A DNA stretch of 64,000 bases from Rhodocyclus gracilis (GTDB lineage: Bacteria > Pseudomonadota > Gammaproteobacteria > Burkholderiales > Rhodocyclaceae): assembly GCF_009617575.1 (NCBI RefSeq), contig NZ_WIXJ01000008.1, positions 1 through 64,000 on the forward strand. The letters are read 5' to 3'. Positions 6,868 through 39,938 of this stretch are shown here, piece by piece. Under the pieces are notes generated by a model. It worked only from the letters and a program-made list of their open reading frames with translations, did no database searches and was not told where the DNA came from. The position numbers were made by a program, and so were the translations under genes. Each line of letters starts with the position of its first letter. Position 1 is the stretch's first letter.

Positions 6868-6962
6868 TCAGATCACGCATAAAAGCGTGTAAAACCCGAA
6901 ACATCGAGCCTCCACACCCGACGAAGCTCGTCTGTGGCCAGCACCGACGAGCGCTTGCAGGC

Positions 6963-6990
6963 AAAAAAAACGCGACTCAAACGAGTCGCG
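6963..6990 (-). terminator. Intrinsic terminator of the candidate sRNA
   Basis: Perfect stem CGCGACTC / GAGTCGCG, 4-nt loop, followed on the minus strand by eight T. No protein gene lies upstream on this strand until past 7.7 kb, so the terminator needs an RNA to end. Confidence 0.88.
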
Positions 6991-7060
6991 CTAAATCCAC
7001 ACCAAAGGAGGAGGGTGGAGGAGACAAAACAGCAAGCGCCAAAAAGTGCGACGCTGAGTT
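6963..7060 (-). ncRNA. Candidate trans-acting small RNA, about 98 nt, with anti-Shine-Dalgarno segment
   Basis: A complete transcription unit is visible. A promoter (7096-7068) would start RNA near 7060. Bases near 7055-7035 can fold into a 6 bp stem, AGCGUC with GGCGCU. A C/U-rich stretch at about 7025-7005 reads CUCCUCC twice. The unit ends in an 8 bp stem with a 4-nt loop and eight U residues (6990-6963). This is the build of Hfq-type sRNAs, which pair with ribosome sites through C/U-rich loops. No convincing ORF lies in it. The alternative is an attenuator leader of rplM, because the terminator points at that gene. I do not recognise a named family. The remaining bases between 7097 and 7343 show nothing else assignable. 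Confidence 0.6.
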
Positions 7061-7067
7061 GGATCGA

Positions 7068-7096
7068 ATTATCCTGCCAAACATTGCAAAGATCAA
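7068..7096 (-). promoter_or_regulatory. Promoter of the candidate sRNA
   Basis: TTGATC (7096-7091), 17 bp, GATAAT (7073-7068). The hexamers and spacing are identical to those of the promoter I place before tkt at 59.9 kb. Confidence 0.7.
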
Positions 7097-7343
7097 GCAC
7101 CTTTGTGCATCGCGGAAGCGATTCCGTCCATCTCCCCGCCAAACCAGACAAGAAATGACAAACCTTACAGAACATAACCCTAGAAACGCCAAAAGGAAAC
7201 GACTTCCTCAATTCGTAATTTCAACCATCCCGCCGCCCCTCGCTCGCCCCCCCAAATTTGCTGCGACGCACCAGAACACACAGGCACATCCGAACAACTC
7301 ACCGCACGCTACAATTGCGAAAACAAAACCCGAGGGATGCCAT

Positions 7344-7763
7344 ATGGAATGCAGAGTCCGCTGGAGCGGCGAAGGGATGTCGTTCATTGCCGAGACCGGC
7401 AGCAAGCACGTACTGATGATGGATGGCGCCCCGGAAGCCGGAGGACGCAATCTCGCCCCGCGCCCTCTCGAAACCATGCTCGCTGGCGCTGGCGGCTGCA
7501 CCGCCTTTGATGTCGTGCTGATCTTACAGAAAGGGCGACAAGCCGTCACAGGATGCGACGTTACGCTCTCAGCGGAACGCGCCGAAACCGACCCGAAGGT
7601 ATTCACGCGCATTCACTTCCATTTCCGCGTCACGGGAAAAGGATTGCGCCCCGAGAGCGTCGCCCGAGCCATCGAACTGTCGCACGACAAGTATTGCTCT
7701 GCCTCGATCATGCTCGGCAAAACCGCCGCAATCACTCACGACTTCGAGATCATCGAAACCTGA
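7344..7763 (+). CDS. OsmC/Ohr-family protein
   Basis: Thiol-dependent peroxidase fold of the OsmC family, 139 residues, cytoplasmic. The two redox cysteines are present: Cys52 in GGCTAFD and Cys118 in KYCSAS. The sequence is closer to the YhfA/OsmC-like branch than to Ohr, so the true substrate is uncertain. The open frame extends far upstream, but the ATG at 7344 has a GAGGG site six bases before it and gives the family's normal length; upstream residues look like noise. It converges on coq7 with 35 bp between the stops. Confidence 0.88.
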   Translation: MECRVRWSGEGMSFIAETGSKHVLMMDGAPEAGGRNLAPRPLETMLAGAGGCTAFDVVLILQKGRQAVTGCDVTLSAERAETDPKVFTRIHFHFRVTGKGLRPESVARAIELSHDKYCSASIMLGKTAAITHDFEIIET

Positions 7764-7798: not shown

Positions 7799-8422
7799 CT
7801 AGAGGCGATAGGCTGCACCTGTCATGACCTTGGCGGCGCTTCGCATGGCGGCTTTAACCGGCGAAGGCAACTCTCTGCCCCCCAAACCAACGGCCATGTG
7901 AGCATGGGCGATTTCGTCGGCACTCATCTGCGCGAGAATCGCGCGCGACCGTGCATCTTCTTCGGGCAGTTCCGCGAGATGGCGAGCCAGGTGAAGCTCA
8001 ACCTGGCGCTCGGTTTCGGCGAGAAAACCCAAATTCCAGGCATCGCCCATCGCACCCGACAGCACTCCCATCGACAGCGCACCGAGGTAGAAAAGCGGGT
8101 TCAACACGCTCGTGCGGCCGCCGAGTTCCGACAAACGCCGCTCGGTCCAGGCCAAGTGTTCGACTTCCTCCCGCCCCGCCTTTTCGAGCGCGGCGCGCAA
8201 GGCCGGCTGCCGACTGGTGATGGCCTGCCCTTGATAAAGCGCCTGCGCACACACCTCGCCACAGTGGTTGACCCGCATCAACGCGGCCACATGCCGACGG
8301 TCGTCGTCCGACAGATCGACATCCGCCACGTCAGCACCGGGCATCGGGCGCGACAAGGGCGACGAGGCAAATACGGTCCGCAACGCGCGATCAAACTCGA
8401 TGATGAAGCGATCGGCCAGCAT
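7799..8422 (-). CDS. coq7: 2-polyprenyl-3-methyl-6-methoxy-1,4-benzoquinone monooxygenase
   Basis: Di-iron hydroxylase for the last ring hydroxylation of ubiquinone synthesis, peripheral on the inner membrane. The 207-residue protein keeps the carboxylate/histidine set of the family in two halves: VNHCGE and EEVEH in the first, ETERQVE and ADEIAH in the second. I start at ATG 8422, four bases after GGAGG; a GTG one codon earlier sits too close to that site. It follows the CNP1-like gene by about 50 bp on the same strand. Confidence 0.94.
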
Positions 8423-8472
8423 CACACCTCCAAGCTAAAACGTTCGCCCAGCCCTCACCCCTTGCCGGGGAA

Positions 8473-39555: not shown

Positions 39556-39938
39556 GAGGTGGGGAAGCCGCCCGGTAAGCCGGGTTCTGTCGTGGACAGT
39601 CATTCCTCTAGGCACGTCGTTACCGACGCGCTCAAGCAGCCAACCCGGAAGCGACGCGAGCCACGTCATTGCTTCCCTATTCGGCCTTGCTCCGGATGGG
39701 GTTTGCCGTGCCGTCCGCGTTGCCGCGTCCGCGGTGAGCTCTTACCTCGCCGTTTCACCCTTACCTGATCCCTGCCGTTTCCGGCGGGGCCATCGGCGGT
39801 CTATTCTCTGTTGCACTTTCCGTCGCCTTTGCCTTGCGGCGTATAGCGCCCGGCCGTTAGCCGGCATCCTGCTCTGCGGAGCCCGGACTTTCCTCCCGGC
39901 GCACAAAGCGCCCGGCGACTGTCTAGGCGACTTCCCCG
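39556..39938 (-). ncRNA. rnpB: RNase P RNA (class A)
   Basis: Catalytic RNA that trims tRNA 5' leaders. Minus-strand landmarks in order: GAAGUCGCCUAGACAGUCGCC at the 5' end, GGAGGAAAGUCCGGGCUCC (CR-I), the AGGGUGAAACGGCGAGGUAAGAG block, and AGAACCCGGCUUACCGGGC near the 3' end. The 5' GGGGAAG pairs with the 3' CUUCCCC to close P1. About 383 nt, close to the 377 of E. coli. Ends are estimated to within a few bases. Genes shown in this stretch by open frames are spurious. Confidence 0.95.

Follow-up and report, generated by a model that had tools for sequence, protein, structure and literature searches.

The 64,000-nt stretch of Rhodocyclus gracilis DNA analysed here (the window) contains a small RNA (sRNA) gene on its minus strand, at 7061-6963, beside rplM; it comprises a promoter, a 5' hairpin, two CUCCUCC motifs and a terminator. 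An initial annotation had described such an sRNA-like unit beside rplM, and this observation was confirmed by a promoter scan, the predicted fold, the terminator and a comparison with relatives. The downstream neighbour rplM (encoding L13; 6367-6795, minus strand) lies outside the unit, which ends about 167 nt upstream of it on the same strand. A likely promoter of rplM itself, TTGACA-18-TAGACT, is located at 6867-6838 of the minus strand, past the sRNA terminator. On the other side lie a divergent osmC-like gene (7344-7763, plus strand) and coq7 (7799-8425, minus strand), which served as synteny markers at 59 and 45, respectively, of the 62 sRNA loci of this rplM/osmC/coq7 type; rplM was found at 53 of them.

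The scan recovered the promoter claimed previously, TTGATC-17-GATAAT, at 7096-7068 of the minus strand, with the -35 box at 7091-7096 and the -10 box at 7068-7073. Transcription would start at about 7061 and yield an RNA of ~99 nt, in line with the ~98 nt proposed before. The predicted fold of 101 nt had a z-score of -5.83, and none of 200 shuffled sequences was equally stable. On the minus strand, the primary transcript carries a 5' leader hairpin at 7030-7056 (recognized from the fold and from relatives), two CUCCUCC anti-Shine-Dalgarno (anti-SD) motifs at 7017-7023 (motif 1) and 7007-7013 (motif 2), and an intrinsic terminator stem-loop at 6992-6969, which runs into U8 (the 8-T run at 6963-6970) and has 10 pairs where an 8-bp stem had been claimed. 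Both CUCCUCC copies were present as annotated, but the single open C/U-rich strand that was thought to hold them was not: in the fold, motif 1 is partly single-stranded and partly inside the stem UCCACCC/GG-GUGGA, and motif 2 lies mostly in the loop of that stem. A coding ORF was rejected as a reading of this unit: what is conserved is an RNA, whose terminator shows compensatory changes.

Family membership and conservation of the sRNA

The 3' two thirds of the sRNA gave a full-length match (cmscan, model positions 1-64 of 64) to the Rfam family RF02278, Betaproteobacteria_toxic_sRNA, with 63.4 bits against a gathering threshold of 50. This double-hairpin core occupies 6963-7026 of the minus strand (match reported at 6962-7026), and the double hairpin, the conserved CU-rich 5' end and the intrinsic terminator of the family were all found in the fold and the alignment. 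Judged by this match, the window sRNA is a member of RF02278, the family of Burkholderia cenocepacia NcS27. The covariance search against Rfam thus corrects the earlier statement that the RNA has no named family, and an orphan or new RNA family was ruled out. In the whole window, cmscan reported two matches above gathering, RF02278 and a bacterial RNase P RNA of class A (39560-39934, minus strand, 297.8 bits), the latter ordinary.

The label "orphan" is also refuted by the spread of the family. Matches to RF02278 with E up to 0.001 were found in 82 of 101 genomes, the window's own included (above gathering in 58 of the 101), and in none of 14 control genomes. When the 144 matches were sorted, 62 lay by rplM/osmC/coq7 (one in each of 62 genomes), 15 lay downstream of phasin genes, one had another relation to a phasin, and 66 had none of these markers. 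The core of the window sRNA also occurs in records of Azospira oryzae, Rhodocyclus tenuis (NZ_JACIGE010000014.1) and the Accumulibacter group. Azospira, Rhodocyclus and the Accumulibacter group make PHB, which Accumulibacter cycles in wastewater plants. Two loci hold several matches within a few kb, five in L116 (G046:C1:3304000-3310700) and three in L117 (G067:C1:1641000-1648200); these copies are perhaps leaderless short versions, since a -10-like box stands, by eye, directly before the core.

Relatives were compared at this locus, as the initial annotation had suggested, and the promoter, the leader hairpin, the CU-rich core and the terminator were conserved; because these elements, including the promoter spacer, are kept, we regard the feature as above chance. 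Promoters were assignable for 61 of the 62 copies, with a 17-nt spacer in 50 of the 61. Leaders range from 22 to 104 nt and vary freely in sequence, yet their hairpin is kept (mean z of -2.15 over 61 leaders; 52 of 61 below -1). They therefore fold better than shuffled sequences, indicating that the claimed 5' stem is real. In an alignment of 47 sequences drawn from the best-scoring loci, the first 11 nt of the core and GTGGA were identical in all 47, as was anti-SD motif 1; motif 2 was kept in most of them and altered in some (e.g. L217 and L220). Eight of the 10 terminator pairs showed changes on both sides, and the covariation score was 0.375, compared with 0.159 after shuffling and no more than 0.088 after sliding. 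Helix 1 hardly varies, so the comparison neither supports nor refutes it.

Much about this family has already been published: RF02278 itself, the anti-SD action and a function in carbon metabolism, as well as, for a relative, the involvement of Hfq and RNase E. According to citing papers the family goes back to Kimelman 2012; it comprises NcS03, NcS05, NcS27 and NcS62 of B. cenocepacia (the "double-hairpin RNAs") and bdhR1, and members were reported from Burkholderia, Bordetella and Herbaspirillum. Growth inhibition upon expression in E. coli was reported (PMC4603805, PMC5688073). NcS27, described as a growth-damping regulator of carbon use, is upregulated in biofilms, in stationary phase, under starvation and in glucose medium, and growth is slower when it is overexpressed (PMC5688073); its location in B. 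cenocepacia is given through flanking locus tags (PMC4603805). The RF02278 RNAs and the window sRNA share two hairpins, CU-rich motifs and a terminator, and NcS27 also exists as a longer form that contains a processing site, which would hold for the window sRNA too. By analogy with S17S and NcS27 (PMC11722255, PMC5688073), the RF02278 core is likely the processed short form of ~64 nt. In the published text consulted, no PhaR operator is described for the family. The window's genome holds a single copy.

S17 of Bordetella pertussis is Hfq-dependent, raised by BvgA and made as a 190-nt precursor; it lies between a glycosyltransferase gene and coq7, and a 27-nt segment of it was reported to be fully conserved throughout the Burkholderiales and also in other betaproteobacteria (PMC11722255). 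S17 and the window sRNA are both of the anti-SD type. Since both lie beside coq7, S17 is probably the orthologue of the window sRNA; it differs as a 190-nt, BvgA-raised precursor from the ~99-nt RNA with a putative PhaR operator described here. We count it with RF02278 by published likeness. Another comparison is with NmsRA/NmsRB (RcoF1/NgncR163) of Neisseria, in which a CU-rich linker and loop act as anti-SD segments, which repress TCA-cycle enzymes and which are poorly tolerated in E. coli (PMC5362039). CU-rich anti-SD segments are common to them and the window sRNA, but NmsRb (RF02877) scored only 26.8 bits on the latter (E 0.019; gathering 52), and the NmsR sRNAs are tandem siblings linked to the stringent response, not to PhaR. 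Six genomes of family f44 (G104, G176, G255, G278, G299 and G321) have weak RF02278 matches in close pairs, 200-400 bases apart in five of them and ~4 kb apart on opposite strands in G278, which recall the tandem NmsR siblings.

A putative PhaR operator at the sRNA promoter

Upstream of the promoter lies a candidate operator of the type bound by PhaR, the PHB-binding repressor: CGCGATGCACAA (7103-7114, minus strand) fits YGCRNYGCR, and its start precedes the first T of the -35 box by 18 nt. That published pattern is matched by CGCGATGCA at 7114-7106 of the minus strand and is conserved in relatives, which have TGCRNYGCACAAAA in common upstream of the core. In Sinorhizobium meliloti the PhaR operator was given as NYGCRNYGCRN, and the promoters of phaP1, phaP2, phaZ, SMa1961 and mmgR were shifted in EMSA (PMC12542648); in Herbaspirillum, the footprint of PhbF covers 24 bp that include TGNTGCN3GCAA (PMC3206438). 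We examined the phasing with a looser pattern at offsets of -40 to +12. Relative to the TTG of the -35 box, the site started at -19 in 31 of 61 promoters, at -18 (the offset of the window) in nine, at -20 in two, at -17 in two and at -4 in one, and at +1, overlapping the -35 box, in 14; seven of the 61 carry two sites.

The same motif marks phasin promoters. A matrix learned from the 62 sRNA promoters attained 14 bits or more in 27 of the 28 phasin promoters that it was run on (30 loci minus two with too little upstream sequence; the start codon of L110 is doubtful), the exception being L096 with 11.1 bits. The mean best score was 19.8 bits versus 5.3 (sd 3.7) for shuffles, and the best score of each phasin promoter was equalled by at most 3% of its own 60 shuffles. 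In the reverse direction, a phasin-promoter matrix found sites of at least 14 bits ahead of 48 of 62 sRNA copies, compared with 3 of 978 control windows from the same loci. This first matrix had the same starting seed as the sRNA motif; a second one, started from the published core alone, reached that score in 42 of 62 sRNA promoters versus 3 of 978 controls. Even bare YGCRNYGCR was found in 53 of 62 sRNA upstream regions against 145 of 978 control windows. The window's own operator scored 14.3 bits with an sRNA matrix trained without its genus, a value attained by six of the 978 controls. It is a weaker variant with a CGC half-site, for which the two phasin matrices gave only 8.6 and 1.8 bits. 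It is missed by the strict pattern TGCN3GCACAA, and a scan of its genome with that pattern was uninformative: the 11 sites returned compare with nine for the reversed pattern, and inspection by eye showed no PHB genes beside the 11.

The window's genome encodes PhaR (PF07879 at G000:C11:157817-157996, 107.8 bits) and a phasin. PhaR matches were obtained for 86 of 101 relatives and, across the order, for 203 of 299 genomes. Over both sets, rplM-linked sRNA copies had the operator motif at 12 bits in 72 of 78 PhaR-positive genomes versus one of eight PhaR-negative ones (Fisher 2.4e-6, ancestry ignored), and at 14 bits in 66 of 78 versus one of eight (6.5e-5, ancestry ignored). At 12 bits the exceptions were the six PhaR-positive genomes without the motif and the PhaR-negative G014, a draft with five phasin matches. 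The eight negatives are spread over five families (f1, f4, f28, f33 and f49), so phaR was probably lost more than once; some PhaR-negative assignments were made by elimination (among rplM-linked ones, G302, G147 and G180). A fresh set had RF02278 matches in 43 of 80 PhaR-negative and 31 of 40 PhaR-positive genomes. At its rplM-linked loci the motif was present at 12 bits in 16 of 19 PhaR-positive versus none of five PhaR-negative genomes, and at 14 bits in 13 of 19 versus none of five. Among the best 30 loci of each group, it occurred in 18 of the PhaR-positive loci at 14 bits and 22 at 12 bits, and in none and one, respectively, of the PhaR-negative loci.

The conserved, putative PhaR-type operator in the sRNA promoter seems to be a new control input. 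No signal common to the RF02278 family is named in the portions of the literature that we consulted. For three B. cenocepacia copies a "common upstream motif" is mentioned, with no regulator named in the accessible text (PMC5688073). The words "PhaR" and "phasin" are absent from the main texts of PMC5688073 and PMC11722255, and "PHB" from that of the latter. The literature searched gave no paper that connects RF02278 with PhaR, although Sass 2019 (on NcS27) or Kimelman 2012 may contain such a remark. The only PhaR-controlled sRNA in the available text of PMC12542648, PMC8401924, PMC9049629 and PMC11332829 is MmgR of S. meliloti, a PhaR-repressed sRNA reported to lower phasins (PMC12542648, PMC8401924). 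The initial annotation, which missed the operator, had pointed to alphaproteobacterial sRNAs, and MmgR proved the useful comparison. Like the sRNA proposed here, MmgR (RF00519) is a small, PHB-tied sRNA with a PhaR (AniA) operator, and binding and repression by PhaR are those of MmgR. It differs in its reported action on phasins and in sequence: RF00519 scored 15.1 bits on the window sRNA (E 0.82; gathering 41).

Predicted targets and proposed mode of action

In 42 of 61 genomes, a 10-nt complement to the sRNA 5' segment precedes an ATG by 2-11 nt, a tally that includes sites antisense to the sRNA gene itself. Of 44 target sites listed for eight genomes, we examined 40, with two antisense sites excluded; four look non-coding by eye. 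Pfam assigned eight of these 40 site-1 matches to Peripla_BP_6 (liv-type; four in G003, two in G028 and one each in G002 and G012), four to AMP-binding enzymes, and one each to DctP, MFS, a XylR-type sigma-54 activator and a LigB ring-opening dioxygenase, besides others. Peripla_BP_6 was found in eight of 40 targets versus none of 27 control ORFs (Fisher 0.012, ancestry ignored), where 20 of the 27 were scanned with Pfam and seven of 5-112 aa were counted as none; the controls came from 30 of 40 listed SD loci, three of which yielded no new ORF. A general SD preference of Peripla_BP_6-type genes may also explain this enrichment. Predicted duplex energies for six targets were -25 to -34, overlapping those of control SDs (median -22, 5th percentile -26). 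In the window's genome, the two predicted sites precede an AMP-binding enzyme, similar to a protein with a site in G002, and a rhodanese-domain protein. The predicted classes fit the published targets of NcS27 and S17, which are transporters, a sigma-54 activator and the catabolic pathways of phenylalanine/tyrosine and of phenylacetate (for S17, PMC11722255).

We consider it probable, with good confidence, that the window encodes a trans-acting RF02278 sRNA that masks SD sites of mRNAs for uptake and carbon catabolism and responds to PHB under putative PhaR control. Family, conservation, synteny, the operator motif and the co-occurrence with phaR were computed here. From its own sigma-70 promoter the gene would give the ~99-nt transcript, probably cut to ~64 nt, and its two CU-rich segments would pair with SD sequences and thereby keep a set of mRNAs from being translated, probably those for carbon uptake (branched-chain amino-acid-type and other systems), for acyl/aryl-CoA ligases and for the breakdown of aromatic compounds. 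The literature on relatives supplies the masking of SD sites, the dependence on Hfq, processing by RNase E, the damping of growth and the titration of PhaR by PHB; in particular, published relatives pair over ribosome sites (PMC11722255), which supports the earlier interpretation as an independent anti-SD sRNA, though not as an orphan. For the window's genome we infer PhaR binding, the targets and the direction of control, the latter because the usual role of PhaR is that of a repressor; an operator upstream of the -35 box could instead serve activation. Without PHB, PhaR would occupy the promoter and the sRNA would be low. PhaR moves to PHB granules in Cupriavidus necator (PMC9049629); as granules form, it would be titrated away and the sRNA made along with phasin, masking ribosome sites and damping further carbon uptake and catabolism. 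This suggests that the sRNA turns down nutrient uptake once the carbon stores of the cell are full. A PhaR operator would connect carbon storage with the increased expression published for biofilm, stationary phase and glucose medium, and a PhaR-sRNA link would offer a handle on feedback from stored carbon to uptake that is directly testable in PHB producers.

It is unlikely, if still a reading to be reckoned with, that the main output is PHB metabolism itself (phasin, phaB, phaC), as with Sinorhizobium MmgR, rather than nutrient uptake. The lowering of phasins reported for MmgR would fit such an output, as would a full 10-nt complement over the ribosome site of a short-chain dehydrogenase start, phaB-like by eye, ~2 kb from phaR in G007 (L319). 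Against it stand the eight Peripla_BP_6 and four AMP-binding proteins among the 40 site-1 matches and the transporters and aromatic catabolism reported as NcS27 and S17 targets.

We regard as quite improbable that the sRNA masks SD sites while its promoter motif belongs to another regulator of similar sequence preference, or generally to promoters of this clade, with PHB uninvolved. The seed of the main matrices was taken from these very sRNA promoters, the motif is absent in 6 of 78 PhaR-positive genomes, and S17 of B. pertussis is raised by BvgA, so inputs other than PhaR exist. However, the motif recurs in 27 of 28 phasin promoters and is rare in the 978 control windows, it was absent at 14 bits from the best 30 loci of the phaR-less fresh set, and its sequence agrees with the PhaR palindrome examined by EMSA. 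Autoregulation of ribosomal proteins, with the element as a cis-acting leader or attenuator of rplM-rpsI in place of a free sRNA, would agree with the position ~167 nt ahead of rplM in the same orientation and with the presence of rplM at 53 of 62 loci, yet has hardly any probability, because rplM has its own promoter-like site (6867-6838) past the strong, conserved terminator and nine of 62 loci keep osmC and/or coq7 but no rplM within ~1.5 kb (with at least 1.5 kb of sequence there), and also given that 82 of 144 family matches, including those in phasin 3' UTRs and tandem arrays, were not assigned to the rplM locus and that homologues were published as free sRNAs.

Possible copies of the sRNA in phasin 3' UTRs

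Extending the PhaR-controlled sRNA to the Burkholderiales as a whole, we favour somewhat less firmly that the rplM-linked RF02278 RNA is the RNA arm of the PhaR regulon: granules would release both phasin and an anti-SD sRNA, either free or, in some lineages, cut from the phasin 3' UTR, and thereby stop carbon uptake. If this is true, alpha- and betaproteobacteria reached or kept one wiring through sequence-distinct sRNAs.

The second version of the sRNA, proposed for some relatives, corresponds to the 15 of 144 RF02278 matches, in 13 genomes, that follow a phasin match on the same strand at a distance of 15-106 nt; two further ones were found in the test set (G125 and G137). Seven such copies inspected with their flanks have TCTCCTCCTCC, followed by a hairpin and a terminator. 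The 15 matches score 29.0-46.2 bits and may be a sister group of the family instead of members, because all fall below Rfam's gathering threshold of 50. They may be released as free RNA. CTCCTCC occurs within 220 nt after the stop codon in 10 of 30 phasin loci; it is absent from that interval behind the phasin gene of the window's genome. In one locus, L163 (G081:C1:2385200-2388400), phaR, a phasin gene and an RF02278-like hairpin are found together within ~1 kb.
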